Assembly: GCA_030037695.1 (NCBI GenBank)
Contig: JASHQF010000020.1
Coordinates: forward strand, 1-38,395
DNA length: 38,395 bases
From: Thermoplasmata archaeon
GTDB taxonomy: Archaea; Thermoplasmatota; Thermoplasmata; Lutacidiplasmatales; UBA184
Direction: 5' to 3'
The notes under the pieces: generated by a model
The model's database searches: none
Told to the model about the DNA's origin: nothing
What the model saw: the letters and a program-made list of their open reading frames with translations, nothing else
Translations under genes and position numbers: made by a program
Shown: positions 1 through 26,356 of the stretch, in pieces
How positions within the stretch are numbered: position 1 is the stretch's first letter
How the letters are laid out: each line of letters starts with the position of its first letter

Positions 1-127
1 AATATCGAGCGGGGGCGTACGCGGCGATTGCGTAACCCCCGACGAGGACACCGCTAAGCGTGCTCGGCCAGTGGAGCAGAATTCCTACCGCCTGCCGCTC
101 CCGCTCATCGGGGTCGACGGGCGACAA
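1..127 (-). CDS. AbiEii-like nucleotidyltransferase toxin, N-terminal fragment (runs off the left edge)
   Basis: Minus-strand frame entering from 127 (TTG start, GGAGG just upstream) reads MSPVDPDERERQAVGILLHWPSTLSGVLVGGYAIAAYAPARY. 'LVGGYAIAAYAPARYS'-like is the NTase-fold entry motif of AbiEii. Overlaps the antitoxin 3' end. Confidence 0.6.
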   Translation of the reverse strand, partial: MSPVDPDERERQAVGILLHWPSTLSGVLVGGYAIAAYAPARY

Positions 128-683: not shown

Positions 684-698
684 TAAACATCGGAAGTA

Positions 699-708
699 GT
701 ATTAATAC
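699..708. promoter_or_regulatory. Perfect 10-bp palindrome GTATTAATAC overlapping the probable TATA box of the AbiEi-like gene
   Basis: Direct reading; lies 22-31 nt upstream of the ATG at 677. Confidence 0.45.
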
Positions 709-951
709 AACGCCTATACGCGGGGGAACGCCATCTCGCTCCACTCAACCGGTCCCCGGCTCCAATGTTAGAAGATACTCCCGAGCTCCGGCGCATGTGC
801 AACGGCTCTTGCAGCTACCTCAACCCGCATGGTGTCGGCATCGAGTTCGAGGTTAGCGAGTCTCCATCTGAGGGGTATACCCTAGGTCGTCAGTCCTGAG
901 CCGGGCACCCTCTGACAGAAGTTTAAGGCAGAGTCGTCGTTTGAACCACGG

Positions 952-1998: not shown

Positions 1999-2094
1999 TC
2001 GCTCCACAGGGATTCGGGGTCGGTTGAGATGGTTATCAAGCGCGATTCCAAATGTCATCGCCGCCTGATCGGCCCCTTAGCTCCTCCAGCCCAA

Positions 2095-2832
2095 CTAAAC
2101 CACCCGGAATAAGTCGATTTTCGCGCGGACTCGCGCCATGAGATCCTCTACGTCGAGCGTCAGCCCGTACCGCTGGAAGTACCGGGACAGGGCACGCGCA
2201 CCCGCCGCTGCGGCCGTGAGCGCTTGATTGAGGCGAACCCAAGCAGGGGTCCCTAGTCGATCGATCCGGACTCCGGCAGCAAGATCGATGACCCACGGTT
2301 GACCGTCGTGTACTAGAATGTTGAAGGGACTCAAGTCGGAATGGACGATTCCTGCCTCGGCGAGGGCCTCGACAGCCGCCACCGTTTCCTGAAGAAACGC
2401 TTCGGGATCGCCAAGGCGGGCATGCTGAAGCATGGGCGCAGCCCCGGCGACGGTCCCTAGATACTGCATCGAGAACATATTTTCCACTCGACGTCCGGGT
2501 TGGGGAACCCGAGCTCCCCCTTGCCAGGCGTAGCTTAGGAGGTCATGCTCAATCAGCGCCCGCTGACCCATGGTCTCGAGTTTGATCGGCCGACCACCCC
2601 GGTGAGCGGTTCGATAGAGGCGGTACGCCTTTACAACGATCAGACGATGGTCGTCTCTGCAGAGATAGACATCCGCCTCCTTGCCGGAGCCGAGACGTTG
2701 GCCGACCTCGGTGGCCAGGCCACACTCCAGGATCGCGTCCGCTACCTCACTGTGGGTGGGCTCGGCGAAGCCGATCTGCCCGGTCCGCACCTTCCAGTGC
2801 ACGCTCTTGTCGAGGTACTCTTCGTTGGGCAT
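2095..2832 (-). CDS. RIO-type serine/threonine protein kinase
   Basis: 245 aa; P-loop 'GSGKEADVY', catalytic loop 'IVHSDLSPFNILVHDGQPWVIDLA' typical of the RIO family. Confidence 0.85.
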   Translation of the reverse strand: MPNEEYLDKSVHWKVRTGQIGFAEPTHSEVADAILECGLATEVGQRLGSGKEADVYLCRDDHRLIVVKAYRLYRTAHRGGRPIKLETMGQRALIEHDLLSYAWQGGARVPQPGRRVENMFSMQYLGTVAGAAPMLQHARLGDPEAFLQETVAAVEALAEAGIVHSDLSPFNILVHDGQPWVIDLAAGVRIDRLGTPAWVRLNQALTAAAAGARALSRYFQRYGLTLDVEDLMARVRAKIDLFRVV

Positions 2833-3183
2833 CGGTTGACCCGGCCCAGGCTCGCAGACTCACGAGATTGGAATGCGGCGGCCTAGCCACGCGAGACCGA
2901 AAGAGGTCAGTCGGCCCACGGGGCGCCGGCATCCACATCGATTGCCATGATTCCCGTGAACCTCCTAGCCGTTGGCCGAATAGGAGACCCGCGAGGCCGT
3001 ATCTAAGGGCTTCGTCGACTCGGTAAGGGGATGACCGGTTCTGATGTTGCAGGTCCAGATCACGACGAGTCGCCTCTCTTTGCTCCTCGAGCGAGTAACT
3101 GTAGGCGAGTAACTGCCGCGATGGTGTCGACCTCGGACGCCTTCTCAAACCTCTAACCCTCTGACTCCTCGGGCGTTCCGGCT

Positions 3184-3543
3184 ATGCCGGTCGAGCGGAT
3201 TGCCAACGTAGACGAGATCCGAGCTGCGCGGATTCGACCGGACGCTGTCTACACGGAGGTCCTTCGACGCGAGTCGATGAGCGTCGGCATCTACGTCATC
3301 CCGGCTGGGGTTCCTGACGAGCAGGCCCCCCACAACGAGGACGAGGTCTATCTGGTCGTCAAGGGACGGGGAAGGTTTCGGCGGGGACCATCATCCACTC
3401 TTGTCGCTACCGGAGACCTGCTCTACGTTCGGGCACGCGATCCGCACCGTTTCGAAGAGGTCACCGAGGAGCTCGTGCTCGCGGTGTTCTTCGCCCCGCC
3501 CGAGGGGACCGCGGCCCCGAATAGAGCGCAAATTCAGCCTTAG
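3184..3543 (+). CDS. Cupin-domain protein
   Basis: 119 aa; 'PHNEDEVYLVVKGRGRFRRG...GDLLYVRARDPHRFEEV' matches the two cupin motifs. Confidence 0.8.
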   Translation: MPVERIANVDEIRAARIRPDAVYTEVLRRESMSVGIYVIPAGVPDEQAPHNEDEVYLVVKGRGRFRRGPSSTLVATGDLLYVRARDPHRFEEVTEELVLAVFFAPPEGTAAPNRAQIQP

Positions 3544-3557
3544 CCGAGGGAGTCCAC

Positions 3558-3778
3558 ATGGATCCGTTCAGCCACATCCTGCTTGCTTACCTTCTCGGGT
3601 TCGGGCTGGTCGGGGCGCACGGACACTCCAGTATGTTGTTGCGTCCGCCTTTGCGGGCGCTCTCCCCGACGCCGAAGTCGTGATCAATCCCTTTTCGAAA
3701 CGGTTCTCGCTAGTACGAAACCGGAGCATCTCCCACTCGATCCTTGGTGTACCGGCCATTGCACCCGGCTGTACCTGA
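3558..3778 (+). pseudogene. Frameshifted/truncated DUF457 (YdjM-like) membrane-bound metal-dependent hydrolase
   Basis: Frame 0 from ATG 3558: MDPFSHILLAYLLGFGLVGAHGHS. Continues in a different frame as LQYVVASAFAGALPDAEVVINPFSKRFSLVRNRSISHSILGVPAIAPGCT*. The two halves together resemble one DUF457 N-terminus. Confidence 0.6.
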
Positions 3779-4046
3779 GTCATGGAAGTCAGGGGCTGGA
3801 GCTTTCATTCACGCGCATCCGACCGTCTATATCCGTCGATGGGCGTGGTAAGTCGACTCGAGGTGAGCAACGGCGCGACTACCTCCAATCCTCCAGAGCT
3901 ACCTTGAGTTCTGTGAGATTCGACGAAGCTTCAAGGACTCCGGGAGGCTCGAGCTCGATGCAGATTTTGTCTTCCCGACGACCTTACTTCCGCTCGCGGT
4001 ACTCATCTATCAAACGAATGCGGAGCTCCGCGTCTCGAATGCGGCG

Positions 4047-4667
4047 GTGAGAGGATACGTCAAGTGGATCTCGACTGCGGACAGCCCCCCTCCCGGAGGG
4101 ACATCGCTCCCCATCGTTCGACTTCCTCGGGACTTCGGAGAGTATCATGGAGTGATTCGCCGGCTCACGGACCTATCACAGACCACTCAACTCTTCTCTG
4201 AAAACCGAGACGCCTACCGATACCTTCTCTCTGAGCTGATCGACAACGTTTACGAGCACGCTCGTTCGAGGCGCTCATACGTCATGGCCCAGTACTACCC
4301 GAAGAAGGGCATGATCGAGGCGAGTTTCGTGGACGATGGCGTCACGATCCCGCGGAGCTTGGGTGAGGGAACCGGCGCTGAGTATGCCCCAGGCAAAGCG
4401 CATGAGGCCATTCTCGACGCCCTCCACGGGAAGTCGGCCAAGGAGGGTGAAGGTCGCGGGTTCGGGCTACAGTCGTCTGTGCGGCTGGTCAACGCTCTTG
4501 GCGGACAGGTGCTGGTAGTCTCTGGCAGCGGAGCCGTAGTTGCCGTGAGGAAGGGAGAAGTTCTGGCCTACTCCCTGAATCCGCAACTTGAGCTCGACGG
4601 CACTCTTGTGAGCCTGCGGCTTTCGGACACGCAGAAGAGAATAAATCTCTTCGACGAGGTTGAGTAA
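4047..4667 (+). CDS. HATPase_c ATP-binding protein, anti-sigma/SpoIIAB-like (true N-terminus lies upstream, see findings)
   Basis: N box 'LLSELIDNVYEHARS', G1 'DDGVTIPRSL', G2 'GRGFGLQSSVRLV'; no histidine-kinase H-box. Confidence 0.75.
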   Translation: MRGYVKWISTADSPPPGGTSLPIVRLPRDFGEYHGVIRRLTDLSQTTQLFSENRDAYRYLLSELIDNVYEHARSRRSYVMAQYYPKKGMIEASFVDDGVTIPRSLGEGTGAEYAPGKAHEAILDALHGKSAKEGEGRGFGLQSSVRLVNALGGQVLVVSGSGAVVAVRKGEVLAYSLNPQLELDGTLVSLRLSDTQKRINLFDEVE

Positions 4668-4673
4668 GGCGAG

Positions 4674-5024
4674 GTGGGAGTTCCAATGGCACTTGTCGTG
4701 ACCGTGCCGCGTCTAGAGATTCAGAAGGACGTCGGCAGCCTCCTCATGTTCAGGAGCGCGGTGACTCCCTTCTTCCGAAAGATCGCTCGATTTCGTTCTC
4801 ACCAGGTCGTGGTGGACTTCTCGAAGGTGGATTTCATGTCAAGATCCTTTGCTGATGAGTACCTTGCAGCAAAATCCACGTCCAAGAAACTCGTGACCGA
4901 AGAGCATGTTAGCCCTGAGGTCCGAAGGATGTTCGATCTCGTTTCCCGCCAACTTCTCGAGAAACAATCAAAGTTGATGAGAAGGCGGACTCCAATTCGG
5001 CAAACCCAGGTTGTGTCACTGTAA
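4674..5024 (+). CDS. STAS-like (DUF4325) protein
   Basis: 116 aa; 'HQVVVDFSKVDFMSRSFADEYLA' is the DUF4325 signature. Follows the HATPase by a few nt. Confidence 0.75.
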   Translation: MGVPMALVVTVPRLEIQKDVGSLLMFRSAVTPFFRKIARFRSHQVVVDFSKVDFMSRSFADEYLAAKSTSKKLVTEEHVSPEVRRMFDLVSRQLLEKQSKLMRRRTPIRQTQVVSL

Positions 5025-5141
5025 CGGAAGACGCCAACGAACTGCAAGCGGCGTTGCGTGTTCGAAGTAGCGCGCGTTTCGAGGGAGGGTTGGTGCCCTC
5101 CGGCCGACCCCCGACCGTCTTCACGACTGGGAATGCGCGCT

Positions 5142-5159
5142 ACTCTAGACCCGTAGAGT
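5142..5159. terminator. Candidate hairpin ACTCTA-GACCCG-TAGAGT downstream of the HATPase/STAS pair
   Basis: 6-bp perfect stem, 6-nt loop. Confidence 0.25.
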
Positions 5160-5295
5160 GCGTTGCACCCACTCCTCGTAGGGAGACATCATAGATCCTT
5201 CTCCCGCGTCTTCACGAGCTCATCATGTGCTCGGACTCGCAAGGAAAGAACCACGCAAGGGAGCCGTGCTCACCCGAGTAGGGTACGACAGTGGA

Positions 5296-6885
5296 TCAGC
5301 GAAAAATCGGCCGCCCTCGAGCCCACAGGACGAGTCCGACGATACCCGTGACTCCAACTCCGAGGACGATCCAAGGTAGCATGACGAATCCCCCGGGGCC
5401 TAGAGAAGTACATCCGCCTCCGAATCCTAACGAACTCGGTACGGACCCATTGATGACAGATACGTTGGAGGATCCGTCGTTGGCGACGAAGAGACTGCCC
5501 GCTCCGTACGCTGGTGCGAACGGCGCAACTCCGACATGAATTGTGGCCACGATCGAGTCATTGGACCCGTTGATAACGGAAACATTGCAGGACCCTGAGT
5601 TGGACGTATAGAGGTCCCCGTCGAGGGGATCTACGACGGGCGACGTGGGAAGAACGCCCACTCGGATCTCCTTGTCCAAACTGTACGTACCAGGCGACAC
5701 CGCGAAGACCAACGAACCCCCCCAATTGCAGCCATAACTACCGAGTCCGCCTTGACAGTAGGATACTCCTACGGGCACGAAGAGCTCCTTGGCGGCCTGA
5801 TCGAATACCGGTTGACCCGGTCGAAACGTCGCCGCCGACCCGGTCGCTCCGTACAGCGTCACGACCTTAACGACAGTGTCTGTTGCCCCCGAAATCACCG
5901 CCATCTGGGTATCGCCTGTCCCGGAGAGACCCACGACGTAGAGGTTGCCGTTGTCCGTATCGTACGAGACCCCGAGAGGCGCGAAGCCGACGGCCAACTG
6001 GGCCACGAGCGATTCGCTCAATCCCGAAAGCACCGCAACGCTTGCGTTATCGACGGCTAACACAAAGATATCTCCGGTCGCGGGATCGTAGGTAGGGTCC
6101 GTGACGTTTTCCTTCAGGTCGATCAGTTTGACGAGCGAGTCGTTCGACCCGTTAATCACTCCAATGTCCTGTCCCGGGGAAGGAAGGAATTGGTCGAACG
6201 AGAGGTACAGGTTGCCGTTTCCGGCATCGTAGACCGGAGTATCTGGATTATCGGTGAAGGTGATGTTGGCCAAGAGTTTCTCGGTGGTGCTCGACACGAC
6301 GGTAACCCGGGGCGGCGCACCGACCACAGCCTCCTCAGGAACGAAAAGGTTCCCGTTCGAAGTATCGACCGCCGGCTCAAGGGGATCCTGCCCTATGGAT
6401 ATCGTCGTAACAACTGAGTCGTTGAGTGGCGATATGACGCTAAGGCCCGAGTCGCTCACATAGACGTGCCCGTCCACCGAGTCGTACACCGCGGGCTGGG
6501 GGCCATTCCCCACGGGGATGCTTGGTAGAGGCGATGGGGAACCGGCCACGATAGCGCCCTCGCGAGGCGTAGAGGGCACTTGCGACCCTCGTGGGACCAT
6601 TTGCACGGAAACCCCGCCCCCGCCAACTGCCGGTTCAAACCCCTCGTCGATTCCCCCAACCAGCGCTAAAGCCGCTGCTGCGATCGCCAAGGTTGCCAGC
6701 GCGAGTGGCAAGAATCGCTGGGTTCGCAAGATCGCCGTTCGAACCGAAGGCGAATTGACGAAATAAGGCTTGTCGAATTGGGGTCGATGGCGCCCCCATC
6801 TTGGAAGAGTGGGGCCGATCGGATTGCAGTATTGGGCTCGAACAATGGATGTGATCGCAGAGGATGCTCGCACGGCGTCTGGCAT
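5296..6885 (-). CDS. Secreted/membrane-anchored YVTN-type beta-propeller surface protein (true start probably downstream of the listed one)
   Basis: N-terminal hydrophobic segment 'FLPLALATLAIAAAALALVGG'; repeated 'VYDSVDGHVYVSDSG..VI', 'VINGSNDSLV', 'YDPATGDIFV'; C-terminal TM 'WIVLGVGVTGIVGLVLWARGR'. Confidence 0.8.
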   Translation of the reverse strand: MPDAVRASSAITSIVRAQYCNPIGPTLPRWGRHRPQFDKPYFVNSPSVRTAILRTQRFLPLALATLAIAAAALALVGGIDEGFEPAVGGGGVSVQMVPRGSQVPSTPREGAIVAGSPSPLPSIPVGNGPQPAVYDSVDGHVYVSDSGLSVISPLNDSVVTTISIGQDPLEPAVDTSNGNLFVPEEAVVGAPPRVTVVSSTTEKLLANITFTDNPDTPVYDAGNGNLYLSFDQFLPSPGQDIGVINGSNDSLVKLIDLKENVTDPTYDPATGDIFVLAVDNASVAVLSGLSESLVAQLAVGFAPLGVSYDTDNGNLYVVGLSGTGDTQMAVISGATDTVVKVVTLYGATGSAATFRPGQPVFDQAAKELFVPVGVSYCQGGLGSYGCNWGGSLVFAVSPGTYSLDKEIRVGVLPTSPVVDPLDGDLYTSNSGSCNVSVINGSNDSIVATIHVGVAPFAPAYGAGSLFVANDGSSNVSVINGSVPSSLGFGGGCTSLGPGGFVMLPWIVLGVGVTGIVGLVLWARGRPIFR

Positions 6886-7182
6886 CCCGAGGCTCGGGCC
6901 GATTCCATCCTACGGCCGAGACTCGGGGCTCGCGCCCAAGGGCAAATACGCTCTCCCTGGCCCCACAAAGCTCGACTGACGCACCGAAGGGCACCATTTC
7001 TCCCTCGGAAGGCGCGCCACTCTAAACTCGCAAGCGGCTTTTCACCCCCGGATGCGCCTCCGAGGTGGACCCGTTCGCGCGTGCGTGGCCCCACTGCGGT
7101 TGCACGCCCGGGCCGATACCTCAGATCATCCTTCGGGAGGCGAACCGGAGCGACAGGTCCGAACTTGTGTCGTGGCTGGATC

Positions 7183-9093
7183 CTAGCGAACCAGTCCGGC
7201 GGCAGCTCTCAACGCCGGGTACCGGGGATCCGCCCGGACCGCAGAGAACAGCGGCAGAACGGTCACCCAGTACATCGCGTTGAAGGGCAGCTTCAGGCTC
7301 TTCTCCATCCACGCGAAGAACTGGTCAGCGTCATGGAGAGCACCGTAGGCCCAGGCGAAGTCCAGCGGCGACACGTAGTTCTTCCGGGCCGTCTCGTGCA
7401 TCGCTTCGATGGCCCGGCGAGCCCCCTCCTGCTGACCCAGCGCGGCGCGGGCGATCGCATCGTACGCGTGACCCGCGTATCCGAGCTCGGGCGAACGCGG
7501 GAGCTCGAGCAGCTCGAGCGCTTCCGCCGTCCGGGAGCTTTGCGCCAGGACGGCGAGCCGGTACAGGTTCAAGGTCTCGGGTCGGTGGCCCTGCTGAAGC
7601 GCGGCGTCCCAGTCCGCCAGCGCATCGGAGAGCCGGTCCTCCGACCAGTGGAGCACCCCGCGATGCTCCAGCATACGCGGGGAGATGGGATCGATCTCAC
7701 GCCAGAGCCCGAGCTGAGCGGCGGCCTCGGGCTCCCGCACCTCCTGCCGGAGCAGCATGAAGTACCAATGTCGAGCCTGGGCGAGACCGGGGTCGAGCTC
7801 GAGGGCGCGATGGTACTCGGCCTCGGCCTCGACCCACCGCTTCTCGAAGGTGTGGAGGATCCCGAGGGAGGCGTGCGCTTCCGCGAGCGAGCTATCGAGC
7901 TCGAGCGCCTTCCGTGTGGCTTGCAAGGCGAGCGGGTACACGCTATCGGGCGGCGCGCTCCGGTTGTCGATCAGGATCGTGTAGCAGTCGGCAATGCCAG
8001 AGTACGCGCGGGCGAACGCCGGGTCGAGGCGGAGGGCCTCCTCGAAGAGCCGACGGGCGGCCTCGATCGACTCGGTCGTCCGTCGGTTCCATAGGGTCCG
8101 GGCCAGGAGGTAGCGTTGGTACGCTTCGACGTTCGAGGTCGGGGGGCGAGGCGCGGCACTCCCGGACGGCAGGACGAGACGCAGCGCGTTCGCCACGCGT
8201 TCGGCGATCTCGGATTGGATCTGGAAGATGTCGAGCACGCCCCGGTCGAACGTCTCGGACCAATGGTGCTCGTCGGTGGCGGGGTCGAGGAGCTGCACGG
8301 TGATCCGGAGCCGGTCCCCGGATTTCCGGACGCTGCCCTCGAGCACCGCATCCACCTCCAGTTCCGCCCCGATCTCGGCCACCGACTTCGTGGTCGACTT
8401 GTACCGGGCGGTGGAGGTCCGCGCCACGACGCGCAGCCCCTGGATCCGGGAGGTGACCGCGATGATCTCCTCGGTAAGCCCGTCGGAGAGGTACTCGTCC
8501 TTGGGATCCGGGCTGATGTTGGTCAGGGGGAGGACGGCGATCCTAGGCACGGAGGGAGCTCGGGACCGTGGCTCACCGGTGGCCCAAGGCAGGACCACCC
8601 GATAGATCGGTATCGGCTCCGGAATGCCCTTGAGGCTCTTCGGGCCAAGCGGCTCGAGGCGGTACGGCACCTTGTGCCGAACCTGATCGAAGACCTGGGC
8701 GGACAGGCAGACGCCCCCCGACTCTGCGAACGGCTCGATCCGGGAGGCAATGTTCACGGCATCGCCGAGGATGTCGCCGCCCCGGTCCTCCACATCGCCG
8801 AGGTGGATCCCTGCCCTCAGCCGCAGCGGGTGGGCGCCGGGCCTCGAGTTCCGTTCGTAGAGCGACCTTTGCAGAGCGACCGCACATTCCACCGCGTCTC
8901 GGGCGTTGGGAAATTCGAGCAGGAGCCCATCCCCGATCGACTTGATCTGCCGGCCCTGGTGGGCTCGAAGGATCGGCTCAAGGAGGGCCCCCTGCTCGTC
9001 CAGCAGGCGCAGGGCTCCTGGCTCGTCCTGGTGGGAGTCAGACGTGAATCCGGCGAGGTCGGTGAACATGATGGCGGCGAGTCGGCGGGCCAT
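7183..9093 (-). CDS. Class III nucleotidyl cyclase with TolB_N-like and TPR domains
   Basis: MARRLAAIMFTDLAGFT..IKSIGDGLLLEF..GGDILGDAVNIASRIE; 'IAVLPLTNISPDPKDEYLSDGLTEEII'; C-terminal TPR repeats. The ORF extends to 9165, but the paralogs begin at (M)xxRRLAA. Confidence 0.88.
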   Translation of the reverse strand: MARRLAAIMFTDLAGFTSDSHQDEPGALRLLDEQGALLEPILRAHQGRQIKSIGDGLLLEFPNARDAVECAVALQRSLYERNSRPGAHPLRLRAGIHLGDVEDRGGDILGDAVNIASRIEPFAESGGVCLSAQVFDQVRHKVPYRLEPLGPKSLKGIPEPIPIYRVVLPWATGEPRSRAPSVPRIAVLPLTNISPDPKDEYLSDGLTEEIIAVTSRIQGLRVVARTSTARYKSTTKSVAEIGAELEVDAVLEGSVRKSGDRLRITVQLLDPATDEHHWSETFDRGVLDIFQIQSEIAERVANALRLVLPSGSAAPRPPTSNVEAYQRYLLARTLWNRRTTESIEAARRLFEEALRLDPAFARAYSGIADCYTILIDNRSAPPDSVYPLALQATRKALELDSSLAEAHASLGILHTFEKRWVEAEAEYHRALELDPGLAQARHWYFMLLRQEVREPEAAAQLGLWREIDPISPRMLEHRGVLHWSEDRLSDALADWDAALQQGHRPETLNLYRLAVLAQSSRTAEALELLELPRSPELGYAGHAYDAIARAALGQQEGARRAIEAMHETARKNYVSPLDFAWAYGALHDADQFFAWMEKSLKLPFNAMYWVTVLPLFSAVRADPRYPALRAAAGLVR

Positions 9094-9423
9094 CGGTGCC
9101 GGGTCCTTAGTCGGGGGGCCTTTTGCCCTCATCGCCCCTAGGTCAAGTCCGGTCCCTTGCTTCACGCTCGCTCGAACGAAGGTCCCCCCTCGCGCTCCCG
9201 TCCAAGCGAGGCGCAGCCTCCCTCCGCGCGACCGAGCGTTCGTTGCGCCTACGTTGTGTCCACATCGGACACGGGGTTCGCACTTGCGACCCTCCGCGTG
9301 CAGGTGGACAGCCTTGGCCCCCCCTCTCGTTCTCCCAGGCGGTGAGCCTTCAATCCGGCGAGAGCACGTGCAGGTCCGGCCCCTTAGGGAAGGCGCCGCA
9401 CGCCCCGGCCGAAGCTTGCTTGC

Positions 9424-9957
9424 CTACTCTAGATCCAGCGCGGCCTCCCTGCGGAGCAGACCTGCCACTTCCGCCTGGGTGGCCTCTTCCATGTTGAAGT
9501 CCGCGCCCAGCATCTTGCGATCGATCTGCTGGATCCGGTTGTACAGCCACTCGAACTCGTGCATGATCAACGGGTCCTTCGACGAGGTTCGGGCCCGTCC
9601 GATAACGTCCACCGGGCTCCGGAGCGCGACATAGTACCCGTCGATCCACGTCCCGAACGCTTCCCACACAAGGTAGGGGGTCAGAACGCGAGCATGCGTC
9701 AGGGAGCCCACCAGCTCGAAGAAGGCGGCCACCTCGAGGTTGACGATGTCGTCATGCCGGCCGGCCAAGAGGTGTTCGGCGAGGGTGCGCCGCCGTCGCC
9801 GGTAGGCCGGCGAGTCGAACCGTTCCCGGAGGGTCATCACGGCGTTGGCGCTGTTGAGGTGCTGGGAGACTCGGACCTGCCACCAGAGCAGGGCGACCGT
9901 GCCGACGGCGATCGCCCAAGCCGCGACCGCTGCGAGCGTAGTGGTGTTGAGATCCAT
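9424..9957 (-). CDS. Single-TM DUF4760-like hypothetical protein
   Basis: 177 aa; N-terminal TM 'LAAVAAWAIAVGTVALLWWQVRVSQ', then soluble 'LRERFDSPAYRRRRRTLAEHL' region. Confidence 0.6.
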   Translation of the reverse strand: MDLNTTTLAAVAAWAIAVGTVALLWWQVRVSQHLNSANAVMTLRERFDSPAYRRRRRTLAEHLLAGRHDDIVNLEVAAFFELVGSLTHARVLTPYLVWEAFGTWIDGYYVALRSPVDVIGRARTSSKDPLIMHEFEWLYNRIQQIDRKMLGADFNMEEATQAEVAGLLRREAALDLE

Positions 9958-10139
9958 CGGGCGCTGCGCTCTCGGCAGGCCGTCTCGGGTATAACCGTCG
10001 ACCCCGCTCGCTCCTCGGCCGGACGGTTCCGGTCCGCCGGCGCGAATCGGGAGGGAGCTAGCGTTATCTCCGCAGGGACTCCGGCGGACGGTCGGCCGGG
10101 TCCACGCTTCGAGTTTCTCCGGCCCAGCGGAAGCACACC

Positions 10140-11657
10140 ATGGAGAGTCAGGGGGCGGTTGCGGCTCCGTCGATGCGGGCCCGGGCCGGGTCGCCGCACC
10201 TCTCCCTCGGCAGCGAGGCGGGCATCATCGCGGCCCTCCTGATGGGGCTCCTGCTCGGCGCGCTCGACAACTTCATCGTCGCCACGGCGCTTCCGAACAT
10301 CGCCCGGGACCTCCACGATCTCTCCGGGCAGGTCTTCGTCGTCACGAGCTACCTCATCGCGCAGACGGTCGCGATCCCGATCTTCGGCAAGCTCTCCGAC
10401 CGGTTCGGCCGGCGCTCGTTCTACCTGTTCGGCCTCGTCATCTTCCTCGGCGGCTCGGTCCTCTCCGGCCTCAGCCAGAACCTCAACGAGCTGATCGCCT
10501 TCCGCGCCGTGCAGGGCCTGGGCAGCGGCGCGTTCTTCACGGTCGTCTTCTCCATCGTCGCCGACCTCTTCCCCCCGAAGATGGCGGCCCGCCTCGTCGG
10601 CATCCTGTCCGCCGTCTTCGGCATCGCGATCGTCGCGGGCCCCCTCATCGGAAGCTCGATCATCGACGTGACGACCTGGCGGTGGATCTTCTTCGTCAAC
10701 CTCCCCGTCGGCTTCGCCGCGATCGCGCTGGTGCTCTCGACGATGGGCCCGATGCGGCCCGCCTCGACCGTCGCCCGTCCGTTCGACACGCTGGGGGCGG
10801 GCCTCATGACGATCTGGGTCGGGACCCTGATCTTCGCCCTGGTCGAGGTCTCCAACGGCTGGGCGTGGACGGACCCGCGTACGGTCGGGCTCCTGGCCAC
10901 GGCGTTGATCGTGCTGCCCCTGTCGCTGTGGCAGGAGTGGCGGGCCGCGGACCCCCTGATCCCGCTGCGCTACTTCCGGATCCGCCTCGTGGCCGCCTCG
11001 AGCGGCGTGAACTTCCTTCGAGGGGCGCTCTTGGTCGTGGTCGTCACGTTCGTCCCCATCCTGGTCGTCGACGGCTTCGGGGGAACGGCCGACATGAGCC
11101 GGGACGTCCTCTACGCGATGATGGTCCCGATGGTCCTCGGGGCGGCGGTGAGCGGCCCCATCGTCACCCGCATCGGCTACCGGATCCCGCTGGTGATCGG
11201 GCTGGCCCTCGCGAGCGTGGGGACCTACCTGCTCACGCAGGTCCCGACGCTCCCGCCCCTGTTCCGGTTCGACTACGGGATCGTCCCGCTGGGGCTGGTC
11301 GGCGCCCTCGTTCCGGTCGGCTGGGGCGTGGGGATGACCTTCGCGCCCACGCAGCTCGCGATCCAGTACAGCGTCGCCAAGGACGACCTCGGGGCGGGGA
11401 CGTCGCTCGTCTGGTTCCTGTCCAACCTGGGCGGGGCGATCGTCGGCTCGCTCCTCGGCGCGTACCAACTGGGCGTCTTCCGGTCGCTCCGCCTCCCGTT
11501 CCCGCAAGCGTTCGCGGTCTCGATCCAGCACGTCTGGTGGGGGTTGGTCCCGGCGGCCCTCCTGGGCCTCGTGTTCGCGTTCATCGTCTCGGGCCGCCTG
11601 CCCAAGACCGCCGACGCCGAGAGCGAAGGCTCCGCCGGCGCGCCGGTCATGATGTAG
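10140..11657 (+). CDS. MFS transporter, DHA2/EmrB-QacA type (about 14 TM)
   Basis: 505 aa; 'LDNFIVATALPNIARDL', 'GKLSDRFGRRSFYLFGL', 'WRWIFFVNLPVG'. Confidence 0.92.
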   Translation: MESQGAVAAPSMRARAGSPHLSLGSEAGIIAALLMGLLLGALDNFIVATALPNIARDLHDLSGQVFVVTSYLIAQTVAIPIFGKLSDRFGRRSFYLFGLVIFLGGSVLSGLSQNLNELIAFRAVQGLGSGAFFTVVFSIVADLFPPKMAARLVGILSAVFGIAIVAGPLIGSSIIDVTTWRWIFFVNLPVGFAAIALVLSTMGPMRPASTVARPFDTLGAGLMTIWVGTLIFALVEVSNGWAWTDPRTVGLLATALIVLPLSLWQEWRAADPLIPLRYFRIRLVAASSGVNFLRGALLVVVVTFVPILVVDGFGGTADMSRDVLYAMMVPMVLGAAVSGPIVTRIGYRIPLVIGLALASVGTYLLTQVPTLPPLFRFDYGIVPLGLVGALVPVGWGVGMTFAPTQLAIQYSVAKDDLGAGTSLVWFLSNLGGAIVGSLLGAYQLGVFRSLRLPFPQAFAVSIQHVWWGLVPAALLGLVFAFIVSGRLPKTADAESEGSAGAPVMM

Positions 11658-11836
11658 CGGGCTGCCCCGACCTCGCCCCGCCGGTCCGTCGCCCCTCCGG
11701 GAGGGCCGAGCGCTCGGCGAGAGCCCCCTTCCGGGCGGGCGCCGATCGAACCGGTCCGGCTCCCTAACTTGCCCGCCAGGTCTCACCGGTCGGTGGGCCT
11801 TCGAGTCGCTGCGCAGGGCACGCGAGCCGAGCCGTA

Positions 11837-13813
11837 CTACGAGGGACCTTCCGGCGCCGACGGCTCGCGAAGCTGGCGCTGGCGTCGAAGAATGTCCTGG
11901 ACTCGGGGGTCCTGCCGGGCGGTCGCGTACAGGGGCGAGTAGAGGAGCTCGAGCAGCGGTAGCACCCCGTGCCGGAGGGCGTACTCCATCGAAGCGATGA
12001 ACGCGTCGACCTCGCCGAGCGCGTAGTGCAGGAAGCCGATGAAGAACACGACCATCTCGCCCTTCCGCTGCCGATCCTCGAGCTGGGCGATCGACCGGCG
12101 AGCGATCGCCGGGTCCCCCTGGCGAACGGCGAGGATGCCGCGGTACAGGAGCGTCCACGGGCTGTCCGGCCGTATCCGCTCCATCTCGCGGATCGAGGCC
12201 TCGGCCTGGCCGAGGTCGTTCTTCCCGAGGTAGTACTCGCTCATGTGGGCGTTCGTCCGGAACTGGACGCGGGGCTTCGACTCCTTCCAGAAGGCGAGGG
12301 CGTCGGCCTCCCGCCCGGCGTACACGAGCGCGCGGCCGTAGAACGAGAGGACGTTGGCGTCGTCCGGGTTCAGGTGGCGGGCGGCGTCCAGGAGGCGGAT
12401 CGCATCGCCGAGATCCCCGTCCCCCGCCGCCAGCTGCGCCAGCCAGCGGTACGGGTCGGCCAGGCTCGGGTTCAGCTCCATGGCCCGGCGGGCCTCGCGT
12501 TCGCATTCCACGAACCGGTCGGATCCGAGGCACAACGCCGCGAGGGTCGAGTGCGCCTCGGCGATGCTCTCGTTGATCTCGAGCGCCCGGTGGAGCTCCC
12601 GGTCGGCCCGGTCCTCCGCCTCCCGGAAGTGGATCGCCCCTTCCGTGGCGAGCCAGAGGAGGGTCTCCGCGAGGCTCACCCGGGCCCGGGCGAAGTTCGG
12701 GTCCCGCGCGACGGAGCTCTCGAACAGGGAGAGCGCGGTGCGGATCCCCTCGAGCGAGCCCTTCTCCCCGAACAGCTGGCGCCCGTGCAGAAACAGCGAG
12801 TACGCCTCCATGTCCGAGGTCTCCGGCGGGGCGGAGGGGGCCGGCGGGGGCGCCCCGGAGGGGGCCCCCCGAACGTGCGTCGTGACGGCCCGGGCGACGT
12901 GGCCGGCGATGTCGTCCTGGATCGCGAAGATGTCGTCGAGCGGCCGGTCGTAGCGCATCGACCAGATGCCGGCCTCCGACCGCACGTCCACCAGCTGCAC
13001 GGCGATCCGCACCCGGTTGCCCGACTTGCGGACGCTCCCCTCGAGCGCGACGCCGACGTCCAGCTCCTCGCCGACCTCACGGATCGACTTCGCCGAGCCC
13101 TTGTAGCGCTGGACCGACGTCCGGGAGATCACTCGGACCTGGGGGACCTGCGCCGTGCGGGAGATCAGTTCGTCCGTCAGGCCGTCCGCGAAGAAGTGGT
13201 CGGCCGCCTCGGTGCTCAGGTTGGCGAGCGGCAGGACCGCCAGTCGTAGCGGCTGGGGGCCCTCGTTCGCGGGCGAGGGGGCGGGGGTCCGCGGCGCCCC
13301 GACGGCGACGCGGTAGATCTCGACCGGCTCCTCGACGTTCTTGAGGCGCCGGACGCCGACCGTCTCGAACACCATCGGGAGCTTGTTCCGCACCTGCTGG
13401 TAGACGGTCGCCGAGAGGCTGATCCCGCCCGGGTCGGCCAGCGGCTCGATGCGGGAGGCGACGTTCACGGCGTCGCCGACCACGTCGCCGCCCTCCTCCA
13501 CGACGTCCCCGGCGTGCAGCCCGATCCGAAGGAGGAGCTGGTCCCGCGGCCCGACCGACCCGTTCCGACGTGCGTTCGCGCGTTGGATCTCCACCGCGCA
13601 CCGGACCGATTCCACCGCGCTCGCGAACTCGACCAGGAAGCCGTCCCCGAGCGTCTTCACCTCGTGGCCCCCGAAGGCGGCGAAGATCGGCCGCACGAGC
13701 GCCTGATGCTCTCGCCGTAGGCGCAGCGCCGCCTCCTCGTCCTCCTGCCCCAGCTTCGTGTAGCCGACGATGTCGGTGAACATGATCGCGGCGAGCCGAC
13801 GCGACGAGGCCAT
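11837..13813 (-). CDS. Class III nucleotidyl cyclase with TolB_N-like and TPR domains
   Basis: MASSRRLAAIMFTDIVGYT..VKTLGDGFLVEF..GGDVVGDAVNVASRIE; 'LAVLPLANLSTEAADHFFADGLTDELI'; TPRs. TTAAT about 25-29 nt upstream of ATG 13813. Confidence 0.88.
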   Translation of the reverse strand: MASSRRLAAIMFTDIVGYTKLGQEDEEAALRLRREHQALVRPIFAAFGGHEVKTLGDGFLVEFASAVESVRCAVEIQRANARRNGSVGPRDQLLLRIGLHAGDVVEEGGDVVGDAVNVASRIEPLADPGGISLSATVYQQVRNKLPMVFETVGVRRLKNVEEPVEIYRVAVGAPRTPAPSPANEGPQPLRLAVLPLANLSTEAADHFFADGLTDELISRTAQVPQVRVISRTSVQRYKGSAKSIREVGEELDVGVALEGSVRKSGNRVRIAVQLVDVRSEAGIWSMRYDRPLDDIFAIQDDIAGHVARAVTTHVRGAPSGAPPPAPSAPPETSDMEAYSLFLHGRQLFGEKGSLEGIRTALSLFESSVARDPNFARARVSLAETLLWLATEGAIHFREAEDRADRELHRALEINESIAEAHSTLAALCLGSDRFVECEREARRAMELNPSLADPYRWLAQLAAGDGDLGDAIRLLDAARHLNPDDANVLSFYGRALVYAGREADALAFWKESKPRVQFRTNAHMSEYYLGKNDLGQAEASIREMERIRPDSPWTLLYRGILAVRQGDPAIARRSIAQLEDRQRKGEMVVFFIGFLHYALGEVDAFIASMEYALRHGVLPLLELLYSPLYATARQDPRVQDILRRQRQLREPSAPEGPS

Positions 13814-13950
13814 CGCCCCCGGAGTTGCCGGCCCTAGATTAACGGCCCGCCCCGGAACGCGACGCACCTAGCGTGAGGGCCCCTCGGCACGGCCCAGCCA
13901 CGCGCCGGTCCGCGTGGGGCCGGGGGTCGATCCGGCGGGCGCGGGCCAGC

Positions 13951-14868
13951 TCAGGTGGGGCCCGGCCGTGGGAGCAGGCGCGACCAGTCCTGAGCGCGGG
14001 ACCAGGCCCGGAAGGAGGTCCATTCGACCCCGGGGTAGTCCCTCTTCAGTTTCGGGATGTCCGCGCTGTAGCCGACGCGGTCGAACCACTCGAACATCTT
14101 CGCGGAGTCCGCGCTCTGCTTGCGGACCTCGTCGAGCGGCACCGCGGTGTAGCTGAGCCGGACGCCCGCGGCCTCCGAGATCTCCCGCGCCATCTCGACG
14201 GGCGTGAGCTCGTCGGAGGCAAGGTTGAACCGCTTCCCCCGGAACGCGGCGCGCCGCTCGATCGCGAGGGTCGTGAACTCCGCGATCTCGGGAAGGGAGA
14301 TGACCTGCAGCTTGCGGTTCGCGGGGATCCCCAGCGCCACGACGCCGTGGGCATAGCCGCCGCTGAACCTGGGCGAACGGAAGTTCTCCATGAAGAAGAC
14401 GGGCGCGACGATGGCGTGGTCAAGGCCGAGCTCCTTCAGGCGCCGCTCCACCTCGAGCTTGCTGTCGAAGTGGGGGATCCCCGTGTTCCGATCCGCATCG
14501 CTCACCGAAGAGTAGACGAGGTAGGGGACCCCCGCCGCGTGCACTGCCTCCGCACCGGCCTTCCCCCAACGAGCCTCGACCGCTGGCCCCTGCTCGAACG
14601 GCGTAGCTACGAGGAATGCGACGTCGAACCCCTTCGCGGCCCTCTCCACCGAGGCAGGGTCCCCGAGGTCTCCTGGCAGGACGTCGGCCCCGGCCTTCTT
14701 GAGCTCGGTCGCCGCGGGGCCGTCCGGCTTGCGGGTCAGAGCTCGAACCTGGTGACCCCGGCGAAGGAGGAGCCGGGCCAGCGCCCCGCCCTGCTGACCG
14801 GTGGCCCCCGTAACGAGGACGCGCTGGGGTTCGGAGGTTCGGCCCGAGAGCTCGTTCGAGGGCGTCAT
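13951..14868 (-). CDS. NmrA-family NAD(P)-binding protein
   Basis: 305 aa; 'RVLVTGATGQQGGALARLLLRRGHQVRALTRKPDG'. Confidence 0.88.
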   Translation of the reverse strand: MTPSNELSGRTSEPQRVLVTGATGQQGGALARLLLRRGHQVRALTRKPDGPAATELKKAGADVLPGDLGDPASVERAAKGFDVAFLVATPFEQGPAVEARWGKAGAEAVHAAGVPYLVYSSVSDADRNTGIPHFDSKLEVERRLKELGLDHAIVAPVFFMENFRSPRFSGGYAHGVVALGIPANRKLQVISLPEIAEFTTLAIERRAAFRGKRFNLASDELTPVEMAREISEAAGVRLSYTAVPLDEVRKQSADSAKMFEWFDRVGYSADIPKLKRDYPGVEWTSFRAWSRAQDWSRLLPRPGPT

Positions 14869-15003
14869 GTCCGACGGACTCCGGCGCGCTCGCAGATAAG
14901 CCCGGGCTGACGGCAGAGTAACTTGCCTCGGTCGCGGTCACCGTGGGGTCCTCCCGCCGCAGGCTAGGCGAAGGCGGGGCAGCGAGGGTTCGGGGCCCGG
15001 CGC

Positions 15004-16356
15004 TCAGCCCTGCGTGACCGAGTAGGTCTCCCAGCTGCCCTCGAGCCCCTTCAGGGGTTGCGACGGCCGTTCGCTGAAGCGGACCCCGGAGCCCACCGAG
15101 AGGTCCCGGACCGTCCGGGAGGTCGCGACCTCGCCCGCGCCTGCGGTGTCGCAGATCCGGGAGGCGATGTGGACCGCGATGCCGGTGATGTCCCCCGGGC
15201 CGACGATGCATTCTCCGGTATGGACGCCCGCCCGCAGGGCGAGGCCCACGCGCCGGGCCTGTTCGCTCAGGGCCTGGGCGCACCGGACGCCCCGCGTCGG
15301 TCCGTCGAACGTGGCCAGCAGCCCGTCGCCCGTGGTCTTCACGATCTCCCCACGGTACCGGGTCACCTCGGTCCGCGCTTCCGAGAGGAAGCGGTCCATC
15401 AGGCTCTTCCACGCCGCGTCCCCGACCGAGGCGGCCCGGCGCGTCGACTCCACCACGTCCACGAAGACGACCGTCTTCAGCACCCGGTCGCTCTCGTCCC
15501 CCGCGCGGGGCAGGTGCTCGAGGAACCCCCGCTGGGCCGCGAGCGACTCGCGTCGGGCCTCGGCGTTGGCCCAGAAGAAGTGGTCGTTCCCCGGGATCGA
15601 GACGAGCTTCGCCCCGGCGACGTGGGCGGCGACGTAATCGGACGCCTCCGCGCGAACGGACCGGTCGCCCGGACACTTCAGCACCAGGGTGGGGACATGG
15701 ACGACGGGCAGGGTGGCACGGACATCGATGTCCAAGTTCAGCCGGGCCAGCACCGCGGAGGCGGAGGGGGAGGAACCGAACCGGATCACGCGGCCGTACC
15801 AGCGTTTGAACTCCGCATCGTCGGTGCGACTCGGCGCCTGGAGCGCCACGAGCCGGTCGATGTACGCAGGAGTTCCCCACTCCTCCTCCGACTGCCGGAT
15901 CGACAGCTCGACCTCCTCCCGTGTCGGCGCGTAGGGGAAATCCGGTGCCCACGAGCCGCGCACGGTGGGCTCGATCAGTATGAGACCGAGGGTGCGCTCG
16001 GGGTACGTCGCCGCGAAGAGCAACGCCATCGCCGCCGTATCGGTGGCGCCGAAGATCACCGCGCGCTCGCAGTGGGCCGAATCCATGACCGCCCGCACGT
16101 CGTCCATCCGGTCCTCGAGCGTGGGGGTCCCGACGACCCGGTCGGAGAGCCCGACGCCACGCTTGTCCCAGAGGATCACCCGGGCGGACTTCGCGAGTTC
16201 CGCGAAGTACTGGGCGGTGGAGGGGTTCTCCCAGACCAGCTCGAGGTGGGAGATCGCCGTCCGTCCGTAGACCAGGTCGACCGGACCTGAACCGAACACG
16301 CTGTAGGCGATCCGAAGGTTGCCGCTCCGGGCGTAACGGACCTCAGGAGGTTCCAT
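15004..16356 (-). CDS. Alpha/beta-hydrolase-like domain fused to a class III nucleotidyl cyclase domain
   Basis: MEPPEVRYARSGNLRIAYSVFGSGPVDLVYGRTAISHLELVWENP..; C-terminal 'VVFVDVVESTRRA..VKTTGDGLLATFDGP..GPGDITGIAVHIASRI'. Confidence 0.85.
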   Translation of the reverse strand: MEPPEVRYARSGNLRIAYSVFGSGPVDLVYGRTAISHLELVWENPSTAQYFAELAKSARVILWDKRGVGLSDRVVGTPTLEDRMDDVRAVMDSAHCERAVIFGATDTAAMALLFAATYPERTLGLILIEPTVRGSWAPDFPYAPTREEVELSIRQSEEEWGTPAYIDRLVALQAPSRTDDAEFKRWYGRVIRFGSSPSASAVLARLNLDIDVRATLPVVHVPTLVLKCPGDRSVRAEASDYVAAHVAGAKLVSIPGNDHFFWANAEARRESLAAQRGFLEHLPRAGDESDRVLKTVVFVDVVESTRRAASVGDAAWKSLMDRFLSEARTEVTRYRGEIVKTTGDGLLATFDGPTRGVRCAQALSEQARRVGLALRAGVHTGECIVGPGDITGIAVHIASRICDTAGAGEVATSRTVRDLSVGSGVRFSERPSQPLKGLEGSWETYSVTQG

Positions 16357-16576
16357 CGGGCGCGACACCCCAGCGAAACGGTCGGCGATATAGCGGTTCC
16401 AACGGCTGGCCGCGCGCGGGAGCCTCCGGGACGTCGGCGGCACAGAGGGGGAGGAACCCCTGCCTCGGGGGGCCCTCCTGTCGCTCGGGCCCCCTCCCGC
16501 CGGACGGCCCCGCACGTCGATCGCGCTGGGAGGGAGGTAACGCCATGTACCGATTCCGATGGACGTCGGCGCTGCG

Positions 16577-17542
16577 ATGCGGGCCGCCGTCGTCCGTGCG
16601 TTCGGCGCCCCGCCATCGTGGAGCGACTTCCCCGAGCCCGCCCCCGAACCGGGCGAACGGGTGGTAGCGGTCTCGGCCGCCGCGGTGAATCCCCTGGTGC
16701 TCACCCGGGCGTCCGGGGCGCACTACAGTGCGGGGACCCAACTCCCGTTCGTGGCTGGGGTCGACGGGGTCGGCAGGTCCGCGGAGGGCGATCGAGTCTA
16801 CTTCAGGGTCGGTCGGCCCCCCTATGGGTCGCTGGCCGAACGCGTGCCGGTCCCGGCGAGCCGAACGCTCCCGGTGCCCGCGGGGGTGTCGGACGTCACC
16901 GCCGCGGCGTCCGCGATCCCGGGGGTCTCGAGCTGGATCCCGCTGACGCGGCTCGCTCCCGTTCGCACGGGCGAGGCCGTGCTCATCAACGGGGCGACCG
17001 GCTCGGCGGGGCGGATGGCCGTCCAGATCGCCCGCCACCTCGGGGTCGACTCGGTCATCGCGACGGGCCGGGACCCTGCGAAGCTCCACGAACTGAACTC
17101 GCTCGGGGCCTCGGAGGTCGTTCCGCTGGGGGAGCCGTGGGACGCCTTCCGGTCGCGCGTCCGGGAGCTCGTGCAGGAGGTAAGGGTCGGTGTGGTGATC
17201 GACTACCTCTGGGGTCCCTCGGCCGAGGCGATCCTCGCGGCGCTCGGCGGACCCGCGGCGCCCCGGGGAAGTGCGAGGGTCCGCTACGTCTCGGTAGGCG
17301 CGATCACCGCAGAGGCCGTCGCGCTCCCGTCGGCCGTGCTTCGGAGCTCCGGCGTCGAGATCCTAGGGAGCGGCATCGGGGCCTCTCCGGACGCTGAGAT
17401 CGTCGAAGGGACCCGTGAGTTCTTTGCCGCCCTGGAGCAGCGGAAGTTCCGGGTCGACGCCGAGGAGCAACCGATGCCGAGCGTCGAGCGTAACTGGGGC
17501 AGGACCGGCGGAGAGCGGCGGTTGGTGTTCACGCTCCCGTAG
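16577..17542 (+). CDS. MDR-family quinone/zinc-binding oxidoreductase-like protein
   Basis: MRAAVVRAFGAPPSWSDFPEPAPEPGERVV..AVLINGATGSAGRMAVQIARHLG. Confidence 0.8.
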   Translation: MRAAVVRAFGAPPSWSDFPEPAPEPGERVVAVSAAAVNPLVLTRASGAHYSAGTQLPFVAGVDGVGRSAEGDRVYFRVGRPPYGSLAERVPVPASRTLPVPAGVSDVTAAASAIPGVSSWIPLTRLAPVRTGEAVLINGATGSAGRMAVQIARHLGVDSVIATGRDPAKLHELNSLGASEVVPLGEPWDAFRSRVRELVQEVRVGVVIDYLWGPSAEAILAALGGPAAPRGSARVRYVSVGAITAEAVALPSAVLRSSGVEILGSGIGASPDAEIVEGTREFFAALEQRKFRVDAEEQPMPSVERNWGRTGGERRLVFTLP

Positions 17543-17801
17543 GCGAGCCTTGGGCCGCCCCGACCGGGCCAGGGGGCGGGATCCGATTCCGGAGGGAGCC
17601 CCCTGGGATGGAAGTTTTCGGGCTCCATGGGCGAATCCTACAGCGAATTCGCAGGAGCTGGGGCGCGGGGGATTCTTGAGCCGCTACGGCGGAATCGCGT
17701 GGGCCCGGCCCGCGCTCTCTCTCCGCCCGGGGTGCGGCTGGTTTCGTTCCTCCCGCGAGCGCCTCCAGATGCGCTTAAGGAACCGGACGCATCGCAAGCC
17801 C

Positions 17802-19760
17802 GTGGCCGCCGACCGCCGCCTCGCGGCTGTGATGTTCACGGACACGGTCGGCTACACGGCGTCGACGCAGACCAACGAGGGGCACGCCCTCGATCTCCTG
17901 CGCCAGCAGAGCGAGCTGCTCCGCCCCGTCGTCGCCCTGCATCAGGGGCGCGAGGTGAAGTCGACGGGCGACGGGTTCCTGGTCGAGTTCGACAGCGCCC
18001 TGAAGGCCGTGCAGTGCGCCGTGAACATCCAACGGCGGATCTCCGAGCGGAACTCCGAGGGGGGCCAGAAGCCGATCCGGATCCGCATCGGCGTGCACCT
18101 GGGGGACGTCGTTCGGACGGGCCCCGACATCCTGGGCGATGCGGTGAACATCGCGGCCCGGATCGAACCGCTCGCCGAGCCGGGGGGCATCTGCGTCTCG
18201 GGGGCGGTCTTCGAGCAGGTGCGCTCGAAGGTCACGGACCAGTTCGAGAAGCTCGAGCCGCGGGTCCTCAAGGGCCTCGCCGCTCCGATCGACGTCTACC
18301 GCGTGGTGCCCTCGTGGGAAGGGAGCGGCGGGAGCGTCGCGAGGGACGCCGCGCTCCTCGCGGACAAGACCCGGATCGCCGTGCTCCCGTTCGCCAACAT
18401 CAGCCCGGACCCGAACGACGAGTACTTCGCGGACGGGCTGACGGAGGAGCTGATCGCCAACCTGTCGCTCGTACCGGGCCTCAAGGTGATCGCCCGGACC
18501 TCGGTGATCGGGTACAAGAAGGCCGAGAAGAAGGTCGCCGCGATCGGCAAGGAGCTCGGGGTCGGGACGGTCGTCGAGGGGAGCGTCCGGCGGGCCGCGA
18601 ACAAGATCCGGGTCACCGTGCAGGTGATCGACGTCGCCACGGAGGAGCATCTCTGGACGGCGAAGTACGACGACGATCTCGACGACATCTTCGCCGTCCA
18701 GAGCGAGATCGCCACGAAGGTCGCGACCTCGCTGCCCGGGAGCCTCGTCCAACCCCAGGTCCCGGTGCCGGAGCTCGAGCGCCCGAAGGAGACCCAGGCG
18801 TACCTCGCCTACCTCCAGGGGCAGTCGCTCATCTGGAAGACGGACGAGCCGTCCTTGCGCAAGTCGCTGGACCATTTCCAACGGGCGATCGAGACCGATC
18901 CGACGTTCGCGCGGGCCTACGCCGGCCTCGCCCGGGCGTACATCAACCTCGGCAACGAGGGGTACCTCACCTGGACCGGCGCGATCGAGATGGGCCAGGC
19001 GGCCGCCGAGCGGGCGAGCAAGCTCGATCCGGATCTCGCGGAGGCGCACGAGCTGCTCGGGGAGCTCGCGTTCATGGCCGACGCTCCGGCGGAGATCCTC
19101 GACAAGGAGCTGCGCCGGGCCCTGGAGCTGAACCCCAACCTCGCGCAGGCCCACAGCATGCTGAGCTCGCTGGCCGGCTCCTTCGGGATCCTGGAGTCGT
19201 ACCTCCTCCTCGCGGACGAGGCGTACCGGCTCGATCCGCTCTCCCCGCCGATGATCCGCCGGCAGGGCGAGGCGTACTTCAACTCGGGTCAGTACGAGGA
19301 GGCGCTGGCCCACTGGAAGAAGCACATCGAGTCGGACCCGCTCGACGCCTACCGCGGGATGGCCGAGTACTGCATCTTCAAGGGGGATCTCGCGGGGGCC
19401 GAGAAGATGGTACGCGAGGTCGAGCGCGTGGCTCCGAACAGCGACCCCGCGTTCCTCTGGCGAGGGTACCTCGCGGCGCTGCACGGCGATCGGGCCACCG
19501 CGGAGCGCATGATCGCCAAGATCGACGAGGTGTTCAAGAAGGGAAGTTCGCGCCAGTCGTCGATCGGGTACATCTACTACGCGCTCGGCGAGCTCGACCG
19601 GTTCTTCGAGTACATGGTCGCGGCGGCGAAGAACCACACGCTGCAGGCGGTGCGGGTCCGCCTCTCTCCGCTGCTGGCGGCGGCCCGGAGGGATCCGCGG
19701 TTCGTGATGCTCGTGATCCAGGCCGGGCGGCCGATGCAGGCCTCCAAGCACGCGGGCTGA
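17802..19760 (+). CDS. Class III nucleotidyl cyclase with TolB_N-like and TPR domains
   Basis: VAADRRLAAVMFTDTVGYT..VKSTGDGFLVEF..GPDILGDAVNIAARIE; 'IAVLPFANISPDPNDEYFADGLTEELI'; TPRs. GTG 17802 chosen because CTTAAG lies 23-28 nt upstream; alternative ATG at 17769. Confidence 0.88.
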   Translation: MAADRRLAAVMFTDTVGYTASTQTNEGHALDLLRQQSELLRPVVALHQGREVKSTGDGFLVEFDSALKAVQCAVNIQRRISERNSEGGQKPIRIRIGVHLGDVVRTGPDILGDAVNIAARIEPLAEPGGICVSGAVFEQVRSKVTDQFEKLEPRVLKGLAAPIDVYRVVPSWEGSGGSVARDAALLADKTRIAVLPFANISPDPNDEYFADGLTEELIANLSLVPGLKVIARTSVIGYKKAEKKVAAIGKELGVGTVVEGSVRRAANKIRVTVQVIDVATEEHLWTAKYDDDLDDIFAVQSEIATKVATSLPGSLVQPQVPVPELERPKETQAYLAYLQGQSLIWKTDEPSLRKSLDHFQRAIETDPTFARAYAGLARAYINLGNEGYLTWTGAIEMGQAAAERASKLDPDLAEAHELLGELAFMADAPAEILDKELRRALELNPNLAQAHSMLSSLAGSFGILESYLLLADEAYRLDPLSPPMIRRQGEAYFNSGQYEEALAHWKKHIESDPLDAYRGMAEYCIFKGDLAGAEKMVREVERVAPNSDPAFLWRGYLAALHGDRATAERMIAKIDEVFKKGSSRQSSIGYIYYALGELDRFFEYMVAAAKNHTLQAVRVRLSPLLAAARRDPRFVMLVIQAGRPMQASKHAG

Positions 19761-26255: not shown

Positions 26256-26356
26256 AGCGGGGTGGGGTAGTCAGGAAAGCGCCGGCGCTCCCGGCGCCCT
26301 GAAATCCCGACGGGCTCATAACCCGTAGATCCATGGTTCAAATCCATGCCCCGCTA
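26256..26356 (+). tRNA. Initiator tRNA-Met (CAU) containing a D-loop intron (26278-26303)
   Basis: Acceptor AGCGGGG/CCCCGCT+A; anticodon arm ACGGG-CTCATAA-CCCGT; T arm CATGG-TTCAAAT-CCATG. A1-U72 plus GGG/CCC anticodon stem are archaeal initiator signatures. After intron removal the D arm is GGGTAGTCAGGAAATCCC with A14, G15, G18, G19, A21. Confidence 0.92.

Follow-up and report, generated by a model that had tools for sequence, protein, structure and literature searches.

To what receiver would four nucleotidyl cyclases signal in an archaeal genome that shows no receptor gene beside them? The question is raised by a stretch of 38,395 nucleotides (hereafter the window) from a Thermoplasmata metagenome-assembled genome (MAG), in which four open reading frames (ORFs) encoding proteins with a class III cyclase homology domain (CHD) lie within 12.6 kb. 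An initial annotation, made from the sequence of the window, had placed these four ORFs correctly and was also right that the window holds no gene for a cyclic nucleotide-binding (CNB) protein. The four cyclases are:

CycA, 7183..9093, minus strand: CHD, TolB-like domain, and tetratricopeptide repeat (TPR) superhelix, with relatives in other Thermoplasmata.
CycB, 11837..13813, minus strand: CHD, TolB-like, and TPR architecture, as in CycA.
Hydrolase-cyclase, 15004..16356, minus strand: alpha/beta-hydrolase and cyclase fusion of the LipJ/Rv1900c type.
CycC, 17802..19760, plus strand: CHD, TolB-like, and TPR; its nearest same-genome paralog lies on another contig (C107).

The answer that we propose, at a probability of about 0.68, is that a dispersed repertoire of cyclases would feed one pool of cyclic AMP (cAMP), read by a stand-alone CNB receiver that in some genera is joined to a winged helix-turn-helix (wHTH) output. 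The effector that had been reported as missing has a candidate in a stand-alone CNB gene on another contig, which tracks the cyclases and was found by a genome-wide search with Pfam PF00027. This search identified two CNB genes in the source genome (G000), both outside the window:

Type ii CNB, contig C125, 14397-14795: stand-alone protein of 152 amino acids, above the PF00027 cut-off, with the cassette Glu and Arg.
Type i CNB (L016/L185), contig C3, 5238-5504: second CNB of the genome, with the cassette GEVFGWSWL, which has no Arg.

The CNB proteins of the order Lutacidiplasmatales form two clean classes, corresponding to these two genes. Those of type ii are about 150 amino acids long and carry the motif FFGEM[AS]L...PR[ST]AD, with the cassette Glu and Arg invariant in 81/81. 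A structural model of the type ii protein (predicted local distance difference test score [pLDDT] 89.8) matches the domains of CRP, GlxR, and PKG. It comprises a CNB domain only, without the fused C-terminal helix-turn-helix that marks the CRP/FNR family. The type i gene was considered as a receptor and rejected, because its cassette lacks the Arg and the type also occurs in cyclase-free genomes; judging by its sequence, this widespread class is probably not a receptor for cyclic nucleotides.

Type ii CNB genes were found in 55 of the 67 cyclase-positive genomes of the order and in 1 of the 39 cyclase-negative ones (Fisher 4e-17; the species are related but counted as separate, so that these p-values are not independent and overstate certainty). 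In the single cyclase-negative, CNB-positive genome (G040), a TolB-TPR ORF beside the CNB gene runs off the end of the contig, which has, most simply, cut away the cyclase domain. Of the 200 Nitrososphaeria genomes, 8 have CHD-TolB cyclases, and precisely these 8 are also the ones with type ii CNB; genomes with only short proteins of Pfam Guanylate_cyc (PF00211) lack type ii CNB. Three genera (g4, g5, and g6) each include some species with both cyclase and CNB and others with neither, so the co-occurrence does not represent a single block of descent.

The receptor candidate is also physically linked to the cyclases. Around 74 type ii CNB genes, 10 cyclases lie within 2 kb and 21 within 5 kb, against expectations of 1.25 and 2.5, respectively, an excess of about eightfold. 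In the Nitrososphaeria, 2 of the 10 CNB genes are less than 600 bp from a CHD-TolB cyclase, arranged head to head (0.065 expected), and a head-to-head pair is likewise present in a Thaumarchaeota MAG. Adjacency to a cyclase requires 19 changes on the CNB tree, a short tree with many unresolved forks, which makes it more likely that adjacency recurred many times than that it was inherited once.

Clustering of the genes neighboring CNB identified a family whose members combine two winged helices, one of AsnC type and one of MarR type (double wHTH). Of its 24 occurrences, 21 lie no more than 500 bp from a type ii CNB gene; these come from three genera, and most of them directly follow the CNB gene on its own strand. 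Elsewhere in the sampled DNA the family is all but absent: in about 713 kb flanking cyclase genes, no strong match lying away from a CNB gene was found. Its adjacency to CNB requires 7 changes on the CNB tree. This arrangement, present at about one-quarter of CNB loci, suggests that CNB and the neighboring double wHTH protein constitute a split CRP. In three archaeal genomes outside the Thermoplasmata (L203, L205, and L207), the type ii CNB gene is directly followed by a gene for a sugar-phosphate isomerase/epimerase-like (TIM barrel) protein, a possible other output.

All four window proteins contain a class III cyclase domain, with PF00211 scores of 44.2, 55.3, 30.9, and 49.5 bits against a cut-off of 21.9 bits. 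Pfam also identifies TPR repeats in three of them and an alpha/beta hydrolase in the fourth, and the TolB N-terminal region (TIGR02800) matches the middle domain (E 8e-7, CycC residues 188-313). Codon-position GC content gives a GC3 of 0.85-0.94 for these ORFs, which are therefore real coding sequences. The catalytic set D-K-D-D-N-R (metal Asps, Lys, purine Asp, transition-state Asn, and Arg) is intact in CycA, CycB, and CycC and present in 116 of the 117 CHD-TolB domains compared; the hydrolase-cyclase has His at the position of the transition-state Asn. An AlphaFold2 model of CycB (mean pLDDT 90.8, predicted template modeling score 0.58) is confident and shows cyclase and alpha/beta domains and a TPR superhelix, loosely placed relative to one another, and the best match of its cyclase domain in the PDB is 3mr7, with further matches to Ma1120 and Rv1900c. 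The intact residues and the CycB model support the earlier prediction of active adenylyl cyclases with soluble TPR inputs, and we infer that the CHD-TolB-TPR proteins of the window are soluble homodimeric adenylyl cyclases.

Some other cyclases of the source genome depart from this pattern. The lone exception among the 117 domains (L014, G000:C120:483-716) reads DRDDRR at the catalytic positions and is probably a decaying or degenerate copy or a pseudo-enzyme. Two long cyclases, L002 (G000:C10) and L004 (G000:C137), have a CHD that is followed by an ATPase region with a Walker-A motif (GEPGVGKSRLAEE in L002), and long-ORF cyclases of this size lie near type ii CNB genes in two further genomes (G038 and G067).

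The window cyclases belong to a large repertoire. PF00211 domains number 14 in the 1.58 Mb of the source genome and likewise 14 in the 1.7 Mb of a congener (97% complete, 1% contaminated). Such domains are present in 67 of the 106 genomes of the order, with a maximum of 21 in one MAG, and in proteins of 154 of the 200 Nitrososphaeria genomes, most of them short (about 265 amino acids); Nitrososphaerales and Thaumarchaeota MAGs reach 15-16. These counts do not support the premise of the initial annotation that class III cyclases are rare in archaea. Mycobacterium tuberculosis has about 16 class III cyclases in 4.4 Mb and Sinorhizobium meliloti about 28 in 6.7 Mb, by which measure the 8-13 per Mb of the densest archaeal genomes is unusually high. 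The short Nitrososphaeria group, with several members per genome and unrelated to the CNB pairing, represents a set of unexplored archaeal cyclases.

In the pathway that we propose, the TPR superhelix and TolB-like domain would sense protein or ligand partners and regulate the many soluble adenylyl cyclases. The four window cyclases, to judge from their intact sites, would all contribute to a single cellular pool of cAMP. The type ii CNB protein lacks an output domain; judging by its cassette and fold, it would bind cAMP, and in some lineages, as gene order suggests, the neighboring double wHTH protein would provide the transcriptional output. Several points weigh against this pathway, in addition to the relatedness of the species noted above. 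In the source genome the type ii CNB gene adjoins neither a cyclase nor a wHTH gene; its contig, C125, does carry a cyclase, at a distance of about 20 kb. Type ii CNB is absent from 12 of the cyclase-positive genomes in the order, four of which, 57-81% complete, have 5-21 cyclases. The wHTH partner was seen at only the one-quarter of CNB loci mentioned and was looked for in the Nitrososphaeria and not found. Intact sequences, repertoire, co-occurrence, and genomic linkage are observed; cAMP synthesis, cAMP binding by CNB, and transcriptional output are all inferred from them.

Each TPR cyclase could instead act within its own complex, with CNB serving to buffer cAMP or, as a subunit of a cyclase, to provide feedback, rather than acting as a pathway receptor. 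A CNB protein lacking an output domain, encoded by a gene that is often adjacent or head to head with a cyclase, would suit such local signaling, but genomes have one to four CNBs against up to 14 cyclases, and the CNB gene is accompanied by a wHTH family that is encoded separately; on balance we consider local signaling unlikely, if still worth serious attention. It is more doubtful still that the cyclases make a product other than cAMP (cGMP, cCMP/cUMP, or a further nucleotide), as they might in a defense role resembling that of Pycsar. A copy number that is dispersed and variable between species would fit that role, whereas the adenine-specifying Lys/Asp pair is kept in 116/117 CHD-TolB domains, and CNB is a free-standing protein to which no effector domain is fused. 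To the proposal of a dispersed cyclase repertoire with one CNB receiver we add, tentatively, a wider possibility: that soil archaea of two phyla have a many-inputs, one-receiver cAMP network in which a split CRP (a stand-alone CNB with a separate partner) acts as receiver, the partner being the double wHTH protein in Lutacidiplasmatales and others in Nitrososphaeria.

Two further alternatives concern the origin of the cluster. The initial annotation had attributed it to tandem expansion after bacterial transfer, and the packing of three genes with a shared architecture into 12.6 kb, the frequency of that architecture in rhizobia, and the existence of tandem copies in other genomes (e.g., G093) would all agree with a recent local duplication. 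In a tree of 116 proteins, however, CycA, CycB, and CycC fall into three separate clades, each with other Thermoplasmata relatives, and the approximately unbiased (AU) test rejects a single clade (p 4e-6). The full-length identity of CycB to CycA and CycC is only 37-40%, against 71-80% to its orthologs in nine named MAGs; several of these orthologs are covered over their full length, at 71-77%. The three are thus not each other's closest relatives, as products of local duplication would be. In the related MAGs, the window neighbors do not recur beside the CycB orthologs, apart from a 41% glyoxalase match near one, which rules out a conserved gene cluster around CycB. Given the separate clades and the orthologs without these neighbors, the cluster is, on the sequences compared, a local meeting of old paralogs, and tandem expansion is very improbable.

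The other alternative, an assembly chimera with bacterial DNA, had been named in the initial annotation as grounds for discarding its reading. The source MAG (1.58 Mb, 78% completeness) belongs to the genus UBA184 (Lutacidiplasmatales), in which matching coordinates also place the MAGs UBA184 and AcS5-107, and the window is its contig C114. GC content in the window is 69-74% from 10 kb onward, and that of the Lutacidiplasmatales is about 69% (PMC9287336). A step near 7 kb, from about 0.60 in positions 1-7000 to about 0.72 in 8000-38395, could be taken as the mark of a chimera. Against this, the nearest relatives of the cyclases are archaeal and come from many independent MAGs: of the 80 closest in GTDB, all but two Armatimonadota and a few records with no title beyond "bacterium" come from archaeal MAGs. 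The same contig carries an archaeal proteasome-activating nucleotidase (PAN; TIGR01242, 577 bits, above cut-off) whose counterpart in a genome of the same genus has 92% identity and which forms part of a syntenic stretch of 3.6 kb; a bacterial contaminant is thereby excluded as the source of the cyclases. The archaeal setting therefore holds, and we give a chimera hardly any credence. The low-GC left part of the window, which contains an AbiEi-like gene, a RIO kinase, a HATPase/STAS-like pair, and a beta-propeller protein, could be an island, an older import, or an assembly join.

Other features of the window include one gene next to a cyclase:

DUF4760 gene, 9424..9957, minus strand: adjoins CycA; a possible, weakly indicated accessory.

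A 75% identical homolog of this gene in another genus (L174:6172-6843) directly adjoins a type ii CNB gene; DUF4760 was rejected as a general partner, as only one further copy was found in all loci. A Thaumarchaeota MAG has a homolog (L224:7649-9277) of the major facilitator superfamily transporter of the window (10140-11657), next to CNB and a CHD-TolB cyclase. A tRNA-Met (CAT) at 26256-26356 on the plus strand was found by Rfam and missed by ARAGORN; about 20 additional GC-rich bases in its D-arm region resemble a non-canonical archaeal tRNA intron.

Class III cyclases are thus carried by whole archaeal lineages, together with a candidate receptor that is inherited with them and physically linked to them. 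In published work, class III is held to include very few of the archaeal adenylate cyclases, and the enzymes behind archaeal cAMP have been described as unknown (PMC8646023), a view of rarity that contrasts with the cyclase densities reported here. The occurrence of class III cyclases in archaea is not in itself new, since COG2114 is enriched in sponge Thaumarchaeota (PMC9289680). The main text of the paper on Lutacidiplasmatales genomes mentions neither cyclases nor cAMP (PMC9287336), and a literature search that took in few subscription journals returned no report of the CNB-cyclase pairing or of cyclase density in this order. A separately encoded candidate CNB receiver would make archaeal cAMP signaling directly testable: cyclase, receptor, and DNA-binding partner are all predicted to be soluble and could be tested in Escherichia coli although their hosts are uncultured.

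Comparison with known systems places these proteins among several precedents. The CHD-TolB-TPR architecture also occurs in bacteria. Rhizobial cyclases (Rhizobium sp. BT03 WP_283200916.1) have the same domain order as CycB, and rhizobial plasmid proteins are about 37% identical to it over 83% of its length. Unlike the window cyclases, the rhizobial and Armatimonadota sequences sit outside the archaeal ones in the tree, for whose rooting these two groups form a narrow bacterial sample; two Armatimonadota genomes were searched for type ii CNB, and neither yielded it. The short Nitrososphaeria proteins share the archaeal class III cyclase domain with the window but, by their size, lack the TolB/TPR region of CycA, CycB, and CycC. 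The hydrolase-cyclase has the same hydrolase-CHD fusion as M. tuberculosis Rv1900c (LipJ; PDB 1ybt, E 2.5e-35), with the same His for the transition-state Asn, and differs in having Lys rather than Asn before TxGDG. The LipJ model covers it over its full length (model residues 4-446, E 3e-99), but its 332.6 bits fall short of the NCBIfam equivalog cut-off of 800, so it is LipJ-like rather than LipJ. Type ii CNB, finally, shares its fold and Glu/Arg phosphate-binding cassette with the regulatory CNB domains of CRP/GlxR and PKA/PKG, and differs from these regulators in having no fused helix-turn-helix or kinase.

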